A program made the position numbers and the translations under genes. Positions 2,813-36,222 of a DNA stretch of 50,238 bases are shown here, in pieces. Numbering within the stretch: the stretch's first letter is position 1; the number at the start of each line of letters is the position of its first letter. The notes beneath the pieces are model-generated. The model was given only the letters and a program-made list of their open reading frames with translations. It did no database searches and was not told the origin of the DNA. Source of the DNA: Persicirhabdus sediminis (GTDB lineage Bacteria; Verrucomicrobiota; Verrucomicrobiia; Verrucomicrobiales; Akkermansiaceae); contig NZ_JAENIM010000031.1 in the NCBI RefSeq assembly GCF_016595495.1, forward strand, positions 1 to 50,238, in the 5' to 3' direction.

Positions 2813-2984
2813 CTGTGTCGCTCTTGCAGAGCTGTATTGTGGCTGGCGCTTTTCCTTGGGTTGCGTTGCCCCTTTGGGGCTGCCTTACCCAAGGCTAGGC
2901 TGTTTCACGCCTTCGGCGTTGGCTGGAAAGATGGCGGACCTTATCCCGCGACTGCGGGAGGACCTTCATCCCGCGACAGCGGGA
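2813..2984. repeat. Hairpin-rich repeat element (type L), copy 1
   Basis: The element begins TGTGTCGCTCTTGCAGAGCT and holds a nested hairpin at 2854-2894 (CCTTGGGT pairing with ACCCAAGG around an inner GCCCC/GGGGC stem), then CGCC-ttc-GGCG. It ends in 24-25 bp units containing CCCGCGAC..GCGGGA. Related copies start at 4887, 5284, 5687 (truncated) and 5951. The paired arms suggest a folded RNA or DNA element rather than a gene. Confidence 0.75.
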
Positions 2985-3164
2985 GGACCTTCAGCTGGCG
3001 GACCTTGAACTGGCGGACCTTGAACTGGCGGACCTTCAGCTGGCGGACCTTGAGCTGGCGAACCTTCAGCTGGCGAACCTTCAGCTGGCGAACCTTCAGC
3101 TGGCGAACCTTCAGCTAGCGAACCTTGAGCTGGTGGACCTTGAGCTGGCGGACCTTGAACTGGC
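2985..3164. repeat. Tandem array, 12 units of 15 bp
   Basis: Twelve head-to-tail 15-bp units of the form G(G/A)ACCTT(C/G)A(G/A)CTGGC fill exactly 180 bp. It continues directly from type-L repeat units that share the GGACCTT start. A period divisible by three leaves all frames open, giving artefactual ORFs (repeating FSWRT on plus, EGSPA on minus). I do not call either a gene. Confidence 0.9.
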
Positions 3165-3342
3165 GAACCTTCATCCAGCGACTGCGGGAGGACCTTGGGA
3201 CTGCGTTTGATGGCGGGAATGGACGTTTTATCTGGCTGGGTGGATGTTAGCCCAGAATGCATCTTGTTTCCTGACTTTCGCGAATTAGTATGAACACTTC
3301 GGTTGTGCGGTATCAGACCACATTTCCTAATAGAAGATAAGA

Positions 3343-4761: not shown

Positions 4762-5067
4762 AAAAGTGTGAGCTCCTGCGAGATGGAGTCCTGCTTTAGG
4801 GAGAAATTTAATCTCCGCACATACCAGCTGGCTGGGGGTAGCTTATGGCTAACTCGAGTTCAGCTGGTTTTTTGTTGCTCAGTGGTCTGTGTCGCTCTTG
4901 CAGAGCTTTTCTACTGGCTGGCGGTTTCCTTGGGTTGCGTTGCCCCTTCGGGGCTGCCTTACCCAAGGCTAGGCTGTTTTACGCCTTCGGCGTTGGCTGG
5001 AAAGCTGGCGAACCTTCATCCCGCGACTGCGGGAGAACCTTGAGCGTAGCGGACCTTGGGCGTAGCG

Positions 5068-5281
5068 AAAAAAGATGTACGGCATTTTTTAAATGTAAGC
5101 GCATAATTTTGAGCCAGCTAGATGTGTGTGAAACCTCTAGAAGTATTGTAGAATCAACAAAAGTAGGTGAGGTCTGGGTTGTTGACACTGTAGCCGCGGG
5201 TGGATGATAAAGCGGGTTTTTCCGGTGGAGCCGCGGGCATGATATGCAGGCTTCTGAAGAAGGTGGGCTATGAGCGCTGCG
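5068..5281 (+). repeat. RAYT 5'-end remnant (type M), copy 1
   Basis: It aligns over about 180 bp with 25839-26016, which is the hairpin plus the start of the RAYT gene. Shared landmarks are the GATGYACGGCATTTTTT hairpin, AGAATC, the peptide-level match GFSGGAAGMIC and the GCGGGCATGAT segment. Stop codons and loss of the catalytic part make it non-coding. Confidence 0.75.
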
Positions 5282-5470
5282 AGCTGTGTCGCTCTTGCAG
5301 AGCTTTTCTACTGGCTGGCGGTTTCCTTGGGTTGCGTTGCCCCTTTGGGGCTGCCTTACCCAAGGCTAGGCTGTTTCACGCCTTCGGCGTTGGCTGGAAA
5401 GCTGGCGGACCTTCATCCTGCGACTGCGGGAGAACCTTCAGCGTAGCGGACCTTGAGCGTAGCGAACCTT

Positions 5471-5684
5471 AAAAAAGATGTACGGCATTTTTTAAATGTG
5501 TGCGCATAATTTTGAGCCAGCTAGATGTGTGTGAAACCTCTAGAAGTCTTGTAGAATCAACAAAAGTAGGTGAGGTCTGGGTTGTTGACACTGTAGCCGC
5601 GGGTGGATGATAAAGCGGGTTTTTCCGGTGGAGCCGCGGGCATGATATGCAGGCTTCTGAAGAAGGTGGGCTATGAGCGCTACG
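5471..5684 (+). repeat. RAYT 5'-end remnant (type M), copy 2
   Basis: Nearly identical to copy 1, with the same start hairpin and the same end (GAAGAAGGTGGGCTATGAG). It is flanked by type-L elements. Confidence 0.75.
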
Positions 5685-5733
5685 AGCTGTGTCGCTCTTG
5701 CAGAGCTTTTCTACTGGCTGGCGCTTTTCCTTG

Positions 5734-5948
5734 AAAAAAGATGTACGGCATTTTTTAAATGTGTGCGCATAATTTTGAGCCAGCTAGATGTGTGTGAAAC
5801 CTCTAGAAGTCTTGTAGAATCAACAAAAGTAGGTGAGGTCTGGGTTGTTGACACTGTAGCCGCTGGTGGATGATAAAGCGGGTTTTTCCGGTGGTGCGGC
5901 GGGCATGATTGGCAGGCTTCTGAATAAAGGTGGGCCTTGAGCGCTGCG
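5734..5948 (+). repeat. RAYT 5'-end remnant (type M), copy 3
   Basis: Third copy, slightly more diverged (CCGGTGGTGCGGCGGGCATG is closer to the intact RAYT gene here). It begins abruptly inside a type-L element, which is truncated at that point. Confidence 0.75.
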
Positions 5949-6168
5949 AGCTGTGTCGCTCTTGCAGAGCTTTTTCTACTGGCTGGCGGTTTTCCTTGGG
6001 TTGCGTTGCCCCTTCGGGGCTGCCTTACCCAAGGCTAGGCTGTTTTACGCCTTCGGCGTTGGCTGGAAAGGTGGCGGACCTTCATCCTGCGACTGCGGGA
6101 GAACCTTCAGCGCAGCGGACCTTCATCCCGCAACGGCGGGGGGCTGTTTGAGCGAGACGTGTGGGCAC

Positions 6169-25838: not shown

Positions 25839-25859
25839 AAAAGATGCACGGCATTTTTT
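25839..25859. repeat. RAYT-associated hairpin
   Basis: AAAAGATGC-acg-GCATTTTTT lies 30 bp upstream of the RAYT start. The same hairpin heads each type-M repeat (5068, 5471, 5734) and, inverted, appears three times at 33628-34146. The rest of 25615-25838 shows no gene; it holds AT-rich upstream sequence shared with no other locus here. Confidence 0.75.
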
Positions 25860-25888: not shown

Positions 25889-27094
25889 TTGGTGATTATG
25901 AAATCTCCAGAACCATTGCAGAATCGTCCAAAACCAGCGGCAAGGAAGCCACTAACGCCGCTGCAGTTGGCGGATTGTAAAACGGGTTTTTCTGGTGGCG
26001 CGGCGGGCATGATTTGTGCGCCGCCGTCTGGCGGGCATGTTCGCATTGTTGGCGATGATCAGCACTCCTACTGTTACCACGTGATGAGCCGCACGGCGGG
26101 AGGAGATTATCTGTTTGGCGACCAGGAAAAAGAAGCGTTTTTGCGCATCATGTGGCGCATGGCGCGCTTCTCAGGCATAAAGATACTGACTTATTGTTTG
26201 ATGGATAACCATTTTCACTTGCTCATTCGCGTGCCTAGCAGGGTGAAATTCAATGCCAAATTTGAAGCCTATGAGTCACAAGGTCGGCCAGACGAAAGAC
26301 CGTCGCAAACCAAGCAGCAAGGGGAAGAGCGGCTGATCGACCACCTGCGAACGCTGTATAGCAAAGCGTACATCAGCCAGCTGCGAGCCGAGCTGGCGCA
26401 CATGCGCGCCCATGGCATGGAGCGCTATGCTGATGAGCAACTAACTAAATACAAAGAGCGATTTTGTAATTTAGAAAAATTCGTCAAAGAACTCAAAGAG
26501 CGCTACAGCCGATGGTATAACAAAACTCACGGTAGGCGCGGTGCGCTGTGGATGGGGCGCTACAAAAGTGTATTGGTAGAGTCGACTAACAAACCAGCCG
26601 AACACGAAACCGGTGAAGATTTCACCGCGCTGCACGCCATCGCCGCCTACATCGATCTTAATCCAGTTAGAGCGGGCATCGTTAGCGATCCAAAAGACTA
26701 CCGCTGGTGTGGATACGCCGCCGCGCTGGCTGGCAGCAAACGCTGTCGCTACGGGCTCTGCGAGGTGATGCGCGTAGCGCAAACTAGCTGGAAGAAAAAC
26801 GCCCATCGATACCGACTCTGGCTGATAGAAGATGCCGCCGTGACTAATGATAATGCCAAATCCCAGCTAGAAAATGAACGTGCTAGAGATGGCAAAATCT
26901 CACCCGCTGAGCTACTACGGCATAAAATAAAATACTTCACCGACGGCGTCGCCATCGGCGGCAAAGCCTTCATCAACAATCAATTCAGAACTCACCGCAA
27001 AAAATTTGGCAAGCAGCGCAAGCAAGGCGCCAAAGCTATGACCTCTGAAAACTCAGCCTGTGTAATCTACTCACTGCGCAAGTTTTCCAGCTAG
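25889..27094 (+). CDS. REP-associated tyrosine transposase (Y1_Tnp, RAYT)
   Basis: A 401-aa single-strand transposase of the HUH/Y1 group. The HUH motif is H108-F-H110 (MDNHFHLLI), and YHVMSRTAGG is the typical start of the fold. The nucleophile Tyr is probably Y206 or Y210 in LKERYSRWYNKTHGRRG. RAYTs act on REP hairpins and appear as single, non-repeating genes. The C-terminal extension (about 290-401) is long and not assigned. The N-terminal 50 residues are what the type-M repeats preserve. The stop TAG lies within CCAGCTAG. It is divergent from tatC. The start ATG at 25889 or one at 25898 (MKSPEP) are alternatives. Confidence 0.9.
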   Translation: MVIMKSPEPLQNRPKPAARKPLTPLQLADCKTGFSGGAAGMICAPPSGGHVRIVGDDQHSYCYHVMSRTAGGDYLFGDQEKEAFLRIMWRMARFSGIKILTYCLMDNHFHLLIRVPSRVKFNAKFEAYESQGRPDERPSQTKQQGEERLIDHLRTLYSKAYISQLRAELAHMRAHGMERYADEQLTKYKERFCNLEKFVKELKERYSRWYNKTHGRRGALWMGRYKSVLVESTNKPAEHETGEDFTALHAIAAYIDLNPVRAGIVSDPKDYRWCGYAAALAGSKRCRYGLCEVMRVAQTSWKKNAHRYRLWLIEDAAVTNDNAKSQLENERARDGKISPAELLRHKIKYFTDGVAIGGKAFINNQFRTHRKKFGKQRKQGAKAMTSENSACVIYSLRKFSS

Positions 27095-32096: not shown

Positions 32097-33410
32097 TTAG
32101 CCAAGTAGCTCGAGCGTGCGCTGAACACGACGGATGCTTTCGTCTTTGCCGAGGATATCGAGGATGTCGCCGAGGTCAGGGCCGCCAGCTTTACCGCTGA
32201 GCGCCACACGTGTTGGGAACATCAGTTGGCCAGGTTTGGCGCCTTCTGCTTTAGCGGTTGCGCCGATGGTTGCTTTAGCTTCACTCCAGTCAGTGAGCCC
32301 AGCAAAGGCTTCAGCCAGCTTAGCTAGCAGTGGTTTGGCGAGAGCATTTTTCTCTAACTTAGCCAGCGCGTCTTCAGCAAATACGTAGTCTTCTTTGAGG
32401 AAAAACTCGATGGCTTCAGGGATCTCCTTGAGCAGAGAAACTTTTTCCTGCACAGATGCGGCGATAGTGGTGAAGTTTTCTGGCAGCTCACCAAAGGCCT
32501 CGAGGGCAAATGGTTTTGCGGCTTCGGCAAATTCCTCAGCGCTGAGTTTGAGCAAGTGCTGTTGGTTGACCCACGCACATTTTTCGATATCAAATTTTCC
32601 AGGTGAGCGGTTCACACCTTCCAAGCTGAAGCGCTCGACGATCTCGTTGATAGAGAAAATCTCGCTATCATCTTTAGGCGACCAACCAAGCAGTGAGATG
32701 AAATTGAACACCGCTTCTGGAAGGAATCCTTCTGGCGCGTAGGTTCCAACAGCTGCACCCTGATCGCGCTTGCTCATCTTTGAGCCGTCCATGTTGAGGA
32801 TCAGCGGAAGGTGAGCGTACTTTGGTGGCTCAACGCCAAAGGCCTCAAACAATTGCAGGTGCTTTGGTGTATTCATTAGGTGATCGTCACCGCGGATCAC
32901 GTGGGTGATGCCCATCGTTAGATCGTCTACCACATTTACAAAATGGAATACGTAGGAGCCGTCGGAGCGTTTCACCACCATGTCTGGGGTATTAGATTCG
33001 TCGGTGTAGTCGACGGTCACCTCGCCGCAGATCATGTCCTGCATCACCATTGGCTTGCGCTCAAAGCGGAAACGCCAGGCACCTTCGTCCTCATAGACGC
33101 GGCCAGCTTCTTCCAGCTTGGCAAACCATTCGTTGTAAATTTCATCGCGCTGGCTCTGGTAGTACGGTCCGTGCTCGCCGCCAGTTTCTGGTCCCTCATC
33201 GTCGTTGAGTCCCAGCCAGTTCATGCTGTCAAAGATGGCGCGACGCGCTTCTTCGGTATTGCGTTCTTTATCGGTGTCCTCCACGCGCAGGATAAATTCA
33301 CCACCATGTTTGCGGGCATACAGCCAGTTAAACAATGCGGTGCGGGCGCCACCAATATGTAGGTAGCCAGTCGGCGAAGGAGCAAATCGTGTTCGTACTA
33401 CAGTTTCCAC
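32097..33410 (-). CDS. gltX: Glutamyl-tRNA synthetase
   Basis: 437 aa class I synthetase that charges tRNA-Glu. HIGH is HIGG at 18-21, and KMSKR is at 211-215, with the catalytic domain and the alpha-helical anticodon-binding domain in the usual order. Length is a little shorter than common GltX (about 470). It is followed directly by aroE. Confidence 0.95.
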   Translation of the reverse strand: METVVRTRFAPSPTGYLHIGGARTALFNWLYARKHGGEFILRVEDTDKERNTEEARRAIFDSMNWLGLNDDEGPETGGEHGPYYQSQRDEIYNEWFAKLEEAGRVYEDEGAWRFRFERKPMVMQDMICGEVTVDYTDESNTPDMVVKRSDGSYVFHFVNVVDDLTMGITHVIRGDDHLMNTPKHLQLFEAFGVEPPKYAHLPLILNMDGSKMSKRDQGAAVGTYAPEGFLPEAVFNFISLLGWSPKDDSEIFSINEIVERFSLEGVNRSPGKFDIEKCAWVNQQHLLKLSAEEFAEAAKPFALEAFGELPENFTTIAASVQEKVSLLKEIPEAIEFFLKEDYVFAEDALAKLEKNALAKPLLAKLAEAFAGLTDWSEAKATIGATAKAEGAKPGQLMFPTRVALSGKAGGPDLGDILDILGKDESIRRVQRTLELLG

Positions 33411-33540
33411 CTCGCTGCTTTACTACGTCAAAGGCTAGCTGGCAAGAACCAGCTGTGCGCATTCTCATCTAGCTGGCCAATTCAATGGGGCGAATTTTAT
33501 TCCGCGTGCGATGTCAGCGGGTCGCAGATGCCTCTCGTCA

Positions 33541-34200
33541 GCTGGGAAATCCCCCAGAAAAACCCGAAAATTTTCATGAAAAACGGCTGGAATGCATATA
33601 AATACGATGCACTGAGTATTCTGTGATAAAAAATGCCGTGCATTTTTTTTGCAGCCAAACCCGGAGGGTTTATGGATTTTAGCCGTGGGTCAAGGAGCGC
33701 AGCGAGTGGCACCCACAGGCAGGAGTTCAATCGTTGATCTGCCGAAGGTAGAGTGGAACGGGCTAGCGAGCCAGTCAGCCTGAAGGTGATGCTAGCAGCG
33801 GCTGGGAAATACTCGGGAAAAACCCGAAAATTTTTACGAGAAACGGCTGGAATGCCTATAAATACGATGCACTGAGTATTCTGTGATAAAAAATGCCGTG
33901 CATTTTTTTCACGGATTTTAGCCGTGGGTCAGGGAGCGCAGCGAGTGCCACCCAGGGCAGGAGTTCAATCGTTGATCTGCCGAAGGTAGAATGGAATGGG
34001 CTAGCGAGCCAGTCAGCCTGAAGGTGATGGTTGCAGCGGCTGGGAAATGCTCGGAAAAACCCGAAATTTTTTACGAGAAACGGCTGGAATGCCTATAAAT
34101 ACGATGCACTGAGTATTTTGTGATAAAAAATGCCGTGCATTTTTTTGCAGCCAAACCTTGAAGGTTTACGGATTTTAGCTAGGTGGTGATGGTTTTGTCA
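33541..34200. repeat. Three tandem ~250-bp repeats with RAYT-type hairpin (type N)
   Basis: Units start at 33541, 33801 and 34039 with GCTGGGAAAT. Each continues through AACCCGAAAA, CGGCTGGAATGC, ATACGATGCACTGAGTAT and the hairpin AAAAAATGC-cgt-GCATTTTTT (33628-33649, 33888-33909, 34125-34146). Units 1 and 2 then hold a segment ending in AGCCTGAAGGTGATG. The hairpin is the reverse complement of the one upstream of the RAYT gene, so these are probable RAYT substrates. No gene is supported. Confidence 0.8.
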
Positions 34201-34578
34201 GTGGGCGGAAGCGCGTTGATGGGAATTCCATTTCCCCTTCGGGGGACGCATGGTTTTTTGGGCGAACCACGGGTTGCACTCGCTTGGGCTCGTTGACCCG
34301 CGGCTAAATTCTGTAAGCCCTCCGGGCTAGCGAGTCAGTTGAACCAGCTGGCGATGGTCATTTTTAGTTAACTGCGTGTTAGCTGGCGCCGGTTCTAGCA
34401 CACTTTCAGCGTGCGGGGTGTTGTTGATGCCAAACCCACGGCTGAAGCCGCGGGCTTTGTTCTGCAGCGCTTTCAGCGCGGAATGGTCCTGGGTGGTTCC
34501 AGCTGGGGTGGTTCTTTCTAGCTGATCATGGTCTAGCTAGCGTTTTGATTTCAGTTCTCATGTCAGAGATTTGGGCAC
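34201..34578. other. Intergenic stretch without gene
   Basis: Contains further dispersed-repeat fragments (CCGCGGCTAAATTC, GCCCTCCGGGCT, CCACGGCTGAAGCCGCGG) and several CCAGCTGG/CTAGCTAG motifs. I see no coding signal. Confidence 0.5.
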
Positions 34579-34710: not shown

Positions 34711-36222
34711 TTAGTAGTCGCTCTTTTTGTCGTCGACGTTTGCTGGCGTGTCCATTTTGCTTTGGCGCTCGGCAGCTTTTTTGTCCCACTCAGGGAAGAT
34801 TTCTTTCTTCGCCTTTTGTTTCATTTCTTCTTCCATGGCCATGTCTAGGCCGATGTAGGCTTGTGCTTTGGCTTTGCTAGAAATGTCAGGAAGTGGCACT
34901 GGATCTGTAACTCCGTGAGTCCAGAGGATCTTGGCGAGCAGGCGGCGTGATTCCTCGGCTTTTTGGATGGATGTGCCGAGTACTTCCAGCGCGGTATTAG
35001 GTGCGTGGAATCCTGATCCGTTAGCAGCAGCTACCCAGTCCCAGCGCCACTGAGCGTGACGGATGAGGGTGAGGGCAGGTTTCATTTCCTCTTCGGTAGC
35101 ACCAGCATCCCAAGCGGCTTTGGCTTCGATGTGGGCGGTGGCCAATGTTTGCTCGACGATCTTTCTCAACCCCATGACTTTTTCTTGGCGTGAGTAGACG
35201 TTTTCTAGCAATGTTTGCTCGCTCTGGCGGTGACAAACTTGGCATGAGTTCGCTACGTTGTTGAGTGGGCTCTGGATTTTGTGGTCGGTGAATTTGACCG
35301 CACCTTCGCTCTTGTAAGGCATGTGACAGTCGGCACATGAAACGCCGCGCTCGGCGTGGATGCCGGTCATGTAGAGCTCGTAATCTGGGTGCTGAGCTTT
35401 CAGCATTGGCGCTTTACTCAGCTTGTGAGTCCAGTCGCTAAACTCGATCTCATCGTAGTATTCTTCCATGGATTCAGCAGAGAAGCCTTTATCCCATGGG
35501 AAGGTGAGGTAGTTCTTTTTGCCGTCGCTTTTATCAAAGTAATATTCCACGTGACACTGGGCACAGACCAATGAACGCATCTCGTTGTGAGTGGCGTCGT
35601 TGATGTCTTCGCCGCGGCGAGCGAGTGCTTCCGCTAGCGCTGGGCGAGAAATGCGCAGGTTCATGTTTTTAGGATCGTGACAGTCTTGGCAACCGATGGT
35701 GTTGACGATCTCGTGGCCGCGGTCAAACCAGCTGCCATCGTAAAATTCAGCCACACCTTGTTCTTCCATCACGCGAGGCACGTCTGTGCTCTTACAGCTC
35801 CAGCATGTGGATGGCATGCCAGCGTTGGTGCGGTAGGTATTGCGAATATCTTCCACGGCGTAGTAGTGGCCGCGTCCTTGTTCGTAATCTTTAGCAAAAC
35901 CGTATCCGGCCCAGAGAACGACGAGGTTTGGATAATCTTCGAGGTAGTCGCGGTGGGCACCGCCGCCATTGAGACTGCGGAATGAGGTGTCCTTAGTATC
36001 CATGTAGGTCTCGTATTGGCGCGGGAAATTGGCGCCCCATACTTCGTTACGTGGTTCCCAATCGGCAATCGGATTGACCATGCCAATTTGTTTTGCCTCA
36101 GATCGGCGTTCCATGATGGAGCTAGCTAGCAGGCCAGCCACAATGACTGCACCTACGGTGGCGCCGAAGACGAGCCAACCGACCCAGGGTTTTTTTTCTA
36201 CTGTATCGCTGATGCTTTTCAT
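34711..36222 (-). CDS. nrfA: Ammonia-forming cytochrome c nitrite reductase NrfA
   Basis: 503 aa pentahaem enzyme that reduces nitrite to ammonium with six electrons outside the cytoplasm. The active-site haem motif is CWSCK (140-144), the rare Lys-ligated motif, and the other four are CQDCH (178-182), CAQCH (220-224), CADCH (296-300) and CQVCH (327-331). NLRISRPALAEAL after haem 2 is also typical. The N-terminus has an uncleaved-looking membrane anchor (about 13-35). It starts three bases after nrfH ends. Confidence 0.97.
   Translation of the reverse strand: MKSISDTVEKKPWVGWLVFGATVGAVIVAGLLASSIMERRSEAKQIGMVNPIADWEPRNEVWGANFPRQYETYMDTKDTSFRSLNGGGAHRDYLEDYPNLVVLWAGYGFAKDYEQGRGHYYAVEDIRNTYRTNAGMPSTCWSCKSTDVPRVMEEQGVAEFYDGSWFDRGHEIVNTIGCQDCHDPKNMNLRISRPALAEALARRGEDINDATHNEMRSLVCAQCHVEYYFDKSDGKKNYLTFPWDKGFSAESMEEYYDEIEFSDWTHKLSKAPMLKAQHPDYELYMTGIHAERGVSCADCHMPYKSEGAVKFTDHKIQSPLNNVANSCQVCHRQSEQTLLENVYSRQEKVMGLRKIVEQTLATAHIEAKAAWDAGATEEEMKPALTLIRHAQWRWDWVAAANGSGFHAPNTALEVLGTSIQKAEESRRLLAKILWTHGVTDPVPLPDISSKAKAQAYIGLDMAMEEEMKQKAKKEIFPEWDKKAAERQSKMDTPANVDDKKSDY

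Follow-up and report, generated by a model that had tools for sequence, protein, structure and literature searches.

Between positions 33541 and 34200 of the stretch of Persicirhabdus sediminis DNA analysed here (50 238 nt, the window), a small hairpin recurs in tandem repeats, and it is found again, on the other strand, before a gene for a RAYT-like transposase and in a further set of repeats, here called type M. What does this hairpin do, and what are the repeats that carry it? The original prediction took it for the recognition site of the RAYT enzyme, on the ground that two unrelated repeat families share it.

The hairpin and its tandem array

The sequence AAAAAATGCCGTGCATTTTTT occurs exactly at 33628–33648, 33888–33908 and 34125–34145, with spacings of 260 and 237 nt, in agreement with the prediction of one hairpin per unit of about 250 bp. 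Because the three-base loop, ACG or CGT, distinguishes the strands, the array hairpins can all be assigned to the minus strand in RAYT orientation (AAAAAATGCACGGCATTTTTT), which bears out the claim that they are the reverse complement of the RAYT and type-M hairpins; the latter lie on the other strand at 25839, 5070, 5473 and 5736, with one or two mismatches. At up to three mismatches the window contains 10 matches (three sites being counted on both strands), compared with 0.01 expected from 100 dinucleotide shuffles, and no site was found beyond the three in the array and these four.

33628–33648, minus strand: hairpin of unit 3, the last in RAYT orientation; exact, 0 mismatches to the genome pattern
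33888–33908, minus strand: hairpin of unit 2; exact, 0 mismatches to the genome pattern
34125–34145, minus strand: hairpin of unit 1; exact, 0 mismatches to the genome pattern
33538–33648, minus strand: core unit E, copy 3 (hairpin, mid-box and GGGTTTTTC box); from the alignment, unit model R1 88.8 bits
33798–33908, minus strand: core unit E, copy 2; from the alignment, model R1 86.0 bits
34035–34145, minus strand: core unit E, copy 1; from the alignment, model R1 86.8 bits
33817–33825, minus strand: GGGTTTTTC box of unit 2, at offset 83 from the hairpin start
33649–34034, no strand assigned: two array bodies, 33649–33797 and 33909–34034 (families D2 and D3), flanking core unit 2

The array core is a 109-nt block present three times, at 33541–33649, 33801–33909 and 34038–34146, with the second and third blocks 93% and 86% identical to the first and the same spacings of 260 and 237 nt. 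The block at 33541–33649, which comes last along the minus strand, is without the body of about 120 nt that joins the other two. The two array bodies are largely 91% alike and contain a second palindromic repeat type. This type, GACCCRCGGCTAAA, also forms a 42-nt inverted repeat (83%) between 33660–33701 and 34285–34326, and by eye it recurs in the bodies of other arrays.

The array is intergenic, with a gltX ORF (32097–33410, minus strand) on one side and a cytochrome c nitrite reductase ORF (34711–36222, minus strand) on the other. An Rfam search of the window at gathering thresholds returned two tRNAs and an Acido-Lenti-1 RNA and left the array without a match, and 33541–34200 had no match in the plasmid collection. 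The array's first hairpin is about 290 nt away from the Acido-Lenti-1 RNA (34435–34480, plus strand, 42.2 bits against a threshold of 37). Two other features of the window were recorded: the hexamer AGCTGG/CCAGCT occurs 218 times across its whole length, compared with about 25 expected for equal base use, and 2936–3173 holds tandem arrays of 25-bp units and of 15-bp units, the latter being CAGCTGGCGGACCTT.

The RAYT-like gene

25839–25859, plus strand: hairpin at the 5' boundary of the RAYT element; near-match to AAAAAATGCCGTGCATTTTTT, with one or two mismatches
25889–27094, plus strand: RAYT-like Y1 (HUH, single tyrosine) transposase gene, 401 aa; Pfam Y1_Tnp, fold match to IS608, ISDra2 and TnpA-REP

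The hairpin ends 29 nt before the start of the ORF (25889) and 38 nt before its first ATG. The ORF matches Pfam PF01797 (Y1_Tnp) with 44.8 bits (cut-off 23); the curated RAYT model of NCBIfam, NF047646, is matched with 47.1 bits, below its cut-off of 80. We call the product RAYT-like. H108 and H110 (NHFH) and Y254, which from the family motif we take to be the catalytic tyrosine, are invariant in two alignments, of 14 and 25 sequences. A search of the PDB by sequence found nothing at E ≤ 1. The structural model of the protein (mean pLDDT 68, pTM 0.63) resembles IS608 (2a6m_B; Z 13.4, rmsd 2.1, 102 residues aligned) and ISDra2 (2xo6_A; Z 12.0, rmsd 2.6, 103 aligned), with TnpA-REP ranking below both (4er8_A; Z 10.4, rmsd 3.6, 137 aligned). 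Domain, HUH motif with tyrosine, and fold agree, and the protein is a member of the Y1 (HUH) transposase superfamily.

The hairpin is the 5' boundary of a multi-copy element

The genome (4.17 Mb in 47 contigs) contains eight full-length RAYT copies, the other seven having 93–95% amino acid identity to that in the window, together with one further copy interrupted by an N gap and several pieces that stop at the edge of a contig. A split RAYT at C41:215858 proved to be apparent only, the interruption being an N gap. In copies with 5' flank, likeness starts at the first As of the hairpin, except that stacked copies have a few flank bases in common; the hairpin marks the 5' limit of the RAYT element.

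On the 3' side, the ten aligned copies fall into two groups. Six lose their likeness after about ...TTC, and their stop codons come from different sequence; the other four remain alike for about 14 nt more, up to the stop TTA(G), so that the right end varies. These four copies also have an 8-bp stem, TCAGCTGG-CCAG-CCAGCTGA, near the 3' end; one more copy has a 6-bp form of it, and one other a 12-bp stem. The 8-bp stem includes AGCTGG/CCAGCT, the hexamer abundant in the window. The hairpin ATGCNNNGCAT was absent from the 3' ends of all 10 copies checked, and a search for an inverted 3' partner of the hairpin at the window's RAYT gene led to that at 33628, 6.5 kb away, as the next one 3'.

Copies truncated at the 3' end are stacked immediately upstream of the hairpin that follows on C12 (105 nt), C43 (67 and 209 nt) and C45 (267 and 723 nt). 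Such stacking could come from loose-ended insertion at the hairpin foot or from slippage; some repeats carry flanking bases along, as plain duplications would. The conserved four flanking bases for which a search had been suggested were not found. A fixed GTAG or GTGG at the hairpin foot is not seen, the flanks being variable and GTAGCT present at few copies only; CT precedes six of 15 RAYT-type hairpins (manual tally) and is not general; and no conserved flank was found 5' of the hairpins of array units.

Two further sets of RAYT genes bear on how closely hairpin and gene belong together. In a 78% subfamily, of which there are one full copy and two truncated ones, the equivalent place is taken by a different hairpin, AAAGATTCCAGGAATCTTT; of its five genomic sites at ≤ 2 mismatches, four fall at copies or fragments of RAYT. 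Seven loci (L047–L052 and L058, on C41, C47, C43, C8 and C45) form a second multi-copy family, about 43% identical, which has other hairpins upstream or no strong ones. Exact ATGCNNNGCAT was found within 600 nt upstream of the match at 0/7 of these loci, one of which matches only from residue 181; the nearest hairpin-like sites have one mismatch and lie at −383 and −433.

Type-M repeats derive from RAYT 5' ends

4887–5990 (right limit by eye), plus strand: type-M tandem repeats, three units, with hairpins at 5070–5090, 5473–5493 and 5736–5756

With the hairpins excluded, a type-M unit aligns to the RAYT 5' end with a local score of 86, compared with a shuffle maximum of 30 (0/500 as high). Judged by this homology, the type-M repeats are diverged and decayed RAYT 5' ends. 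The hairpin is present in them by descent, and is not independent evidence for a recognition site; the supposition of two unrelated repeat families was wrong for type M.

Hairpin-headed units across the genome

The genome has 20 hairpin matches at 0 mismatches and 85 at ≤ 3, with 0 for the reversed pattern; both strands were searched, so that one palindromic site can give two matches. Most hairpins away from RAYT genes head units of one plan, the E units, in which the hairpin is followed by a weak dyad box (the mid-box) and by GGGTTTTTC. The distance from hairpin start to GGGTTTTTC box is 83–86 nt in 40 of 42 units at 16 loci and 75 nt in the other two, at a single locus; one further two-unit locus has 107 nt. 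The alignment comprises 42 of 44 units, the two with a longer spacer at C45:6559 and 6839 being omitted and missed by the model as well. As the units were picked by hairpin and box, the conservation of those two parts is partly built in.

The E units, like the RAYT copies, have a sharp 5' boundary: just outside the hairpin the loci are 30% identical, at its first base 91%, and about 29 nt past the box start identity is back at background. Coarse grouping by position bins (18 or 17 groups) gave nearly the same values as the 16 true loci. The mid-box, near offset 47, has a mean of 5.3 of 11 dyad pairs (4 to 9 in single units examined); shuffle maxima averaged 4.3, with 0/300 as high. The unit model finds 71 places in the genome at E ≤ 0.01, RAYT hairpins included, and 52 at ≥ 49 bits (manual count). 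Ten of the 52 lie outside the training set, all with the box at 83–85, as found by a model that itself contains both hairpin and box. With the two-unit locus added, the total is about 22 loci with hairpin-headed units, the window array included, 18 of them with two or more units (manual count). In the arrays examined the units stand head-to-tail, with one hairpin each and a conserved plan of about 110 nt; unit bodies vary between loci, with parts common to some by eye. The tandem arrangement is most simply explained by tandem duplication rather than by unit-by-unit transposition.

A global fold of the units was rejected: apart from the hairpin, RNAalifold gives no more than a single 3-bp stem, located at the box, and single DNA folds are mixed. 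Covariation in the hairpin stem is weak: five inner pairs are nearly invariant, partly by selection of the units, and two positions covary beyond shuffles. We also considered E units as RAYT 5' ends. Outside the hairpin the E unit compared aligns to the RAYT 5' end with a borderline score of 28 (shuffle maximum 29, 1/500 as high), so that this origin is unsupported beyond the GGGTTTTTC box, through which the similarity probably arises; in the RAYT gene GGGTTTTTC falls within the codons of KTGFSGG.

Local tandem duplication and gene conversion might be the only copying involved, the hairpin having been carried along with old RAYT fragments and having no present role. The type-M units, as decayed RAYT 5' ends, would fit such a history, as would the several array repeats that carry flank sequence in the manner of plain duplications. 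It is nevertheless a very improbable account, because E units differ between loci at most other positions while their hairpin is nearly constant, and because the likeness of the RAYT protein copies (93–95%) suggests recent spread.

The hairpin in related genomes

Among 145 genomes of the family, the hairpin is abundant only in its own: AAAARATGYACGGCATTTTT at ≤ 2 mismatches has 71 sites there (reversed control 0), and 13 in total in the 144 others (reversed control 12). RAYT relatives (E ≤ 1e-20) are present in 64 of the 145 genomes, own included. Eighty RAYT loci came from named Verrucomicrobiota genomes; nine start at a contig edge, without upstream sequence, so that 71 were used, many of which share genomes. 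A related hairpin, ATGCCNGGCAT (≤ 1 mismatch), lies in the upstream stretch searched at 55 of these 71 genes (reversed control 0/71), and at −112 to −114 from the match start in 22 of the 23 loci that match from residue 28.

Related hairpins also occur in numbers. In ten relatives' genomes ATGCCAGGCATTYAGT (≤ 1 mismatch) was counted 20, 15, 13, 12, 22, 26, 8, 3, 0 and 1 times, with 0 for the control in each; a palindromic site can count twice, and seven of the ten genomes have 8–26. The 13-mer AATGCCAGGCATT is found in 11/63 RAYT-bearing and 5/81 RAYT-lacking other family genomes (19 sites, control 1). This link is weak: the suggested refutation, that the hairpin is equally common in relatives lacking the RAYT, comes out only weakly in favour of a recognition site for this form. 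G125 belongs to another genus (g9); there one identical hairpin stands upstream of a RAYT fragment and also at a locus that is not RAYT. By eye, likeness among 38 RAYT copies from the genomes of six relatives seems to fade after the stop codon, with several pairs sharing more.

Of the 55 relatives, 10 have a further copy of the hairpin's 5' half immediately before it (≥ 10/11 bases), and L136 has several. Ladders of half-hairpins directly 5' of a full hairpin were seen upstream of RAYT at L136, L185, L188, L171 and L180, and at L002 (1480–1510); in the own genome, an AAAAG ladder at C21:277473 resembles them. Polymerase slippage at a hairpin could also produce such ladders.

These data bear on two further readings. 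With its A6-stem-T6 shape, and with the window array intergenic, the hairpin might be a bidirectional intrinsic terminator (A-tract, stem, T-tract) that merely recurs. This is highly unlikely, since the stem has two G-C pairs only, many relatives' hairpins are without the T run (GGCATTTAGTTG, GGCATACAAA), the hairpin sits upstream of RAYT genes, and it is at control level in the 144 other family genomes.

The array units might instead be host elements, protein-binding or acting at the RNA level (for example, 3'-end elements), whose hairpin RAYT adopted or targets for insertion. The mid-box and GGGTTTTTC, kept at near-fixed spacing while the rest diverged, look like a selected function, and arrays lie 3' of a co-oriented ORF in 11 of the 15 cases with usable neighbours (16 examined; mechanical ORFs, manual tally), which compared with about 7.5 expected at random is not strong against one half. 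The unit model gives hits in 12 other genomes at E ≤ 0.1, which are weak and in several cases look like chance; in genus g9, G048 has two sequences like the unit, and G071 and G125 have some that resemble it in part. Against host elements stand the related hairpin 5' of RAYT in 55/71 relatives and the different stem at the same place in the diverged 78% subfamily, and the units have no shared fold beyond the hairpin except the 3-bp stem. We consider this reading unlikely.

The hairpin as the probable left end of a mobile RAYT element

Taken together, the comparisons suggest that the hairpin is probably the left end of a mobile RAYT element and hence its recognition site. Of the case originally made for a recognition site, the part built on type M falls away, and the abundance of the hairpin in its own genome only, the sharp 5' boundary, the hairpins of 55/71 relatives and the 0/7 of the second RAYT family now argue for it. 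We favour, with moderate confidence, the joint reading in which the units at 33541–34200 would be REP-like non-autonomous elements that have kept the same end; the array repeats are probably passengers or relics recognized by the RAYT enzyme. The gene encodes a Y1/HUH single-strand transposase and has a single hairpin, some 40 nt before the first ATG. The enzyme would bind this hairpin as folded single-stranded DNA, cut near its 5' foot, and in this way have moved or amplified both the gene and the E units. Counting against the joint reading, movement at one hairpin does not explain why the mid-box and GGGTTTTTC are conserved in the array units. The weak stem covariation, the variable 5' foot and right end, the borderline similarity of RAYT and E unit outside the hairpin and the weak 13-mer link also tell against it.

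Somewhat doubtfully, we also raise a one-hairpin RAYT lineage, in which the left hairpin is the sole fixed end and a loose right end would seed hairpin-headed REP-like arrays. We raise it because six of ten copies take their stops from other sequence, 3'-truncated copies are stacked on C12, C43 and C45, and ladders occur in 10/55 relatives. If true, a RAYT with a loose right end would be a mechanism for the birth and spread of REPs.

Comparison with known systems

The RAYT element proposed here resembles the canonical REPtrons of E. coli, Stenotrophomonas and Pseudomonas in its Y1/HUH protein, in a short hairpin that adjoins the gene and recurs at other places in the genome, and in having separate RAYT families or subfamilies with different hairpins. 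Dispersed hairpin copies that correlate with RAYT, by which REPtrons are recognized, are found here, the correlation being weak for the 13-mer AATGCCAGGCATT. According to the available text of PMC8266576, canonical RAYT proteins bind their hairpin in single-stranded DNA, and that of E. coli, TnpA-REP, cleaves at a CT on the 5' or 3' side of the REP; CT adjoins the hairpin in some copies here, and it is by analogy that we suppose single-strand binding and cutting for the RAYT in the window. The differences are as clear. A REPtron gene is described, in the available part of PMC2817692, as always lying between two inverted REPs, whereas here there is one 5' hairpin with no inverted 3' partner and no GTAG foot. 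The gene is present in many near-identical copies here, whereas RAYT genes are said to be mostly single copy without evidence of mobility (PMC8266576, available text), and the accessible portion of PMC2817692 reports that no IS-like multiple copies were found.

With the IS200/IS605 elements IS608 and ISDra2 the element shares the fold (Z 13.4 and 12.0) and a multi-copy form with a 5' hairpin. IS200/IS605 elements have hairpins near both ends; here the 5' hairpin has no copy at the right end (0/10), and a different 8-bp stem lies near the 3' end in 4/10 copies. The element differs further in a hairpin at the very end rather than subterminal as in those elements (PMC5934647, available text), in its 401-aa protein and in its dispersed REP-like relatives. 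There are also likenesses to TnpA-REP subclasses 2.1 (TIRYT), 2.3 and 2.6, for which the available part of PMC6006769 describes long proteins, several copies per genome (2.3) and atypical hairpins found by eye (2.6); the 2.3 copies, described there as not highly alike and without identifiable hairpins, differ from the RAYT-like protein here. REPINs and BIMEs are likewise small hairpin repeats thought to be moved by RAYTs (PMC2817692, available text), but the array units here are head-to-tail, with one hairpin each and a conserved plan of about 110 nt.

GTAG repeats have been reported in O. terrae (PMC3733652, available text). Among the titles and abstract openings surveyed, neither this hairpin nor a Verrucomicrobiota RAYT is named, although either may be in print elsewhere. 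The available texts of PMC8266576 and PMC2817692 treat the spread of REP repeats as an unresolved question. A multi-copy RAYT with a defined 5' end that is common to about 22 loci makes recognition, cutting and movement directly testable, and makes this genome a place in which to study the spread of a common class of bacterial repeats.
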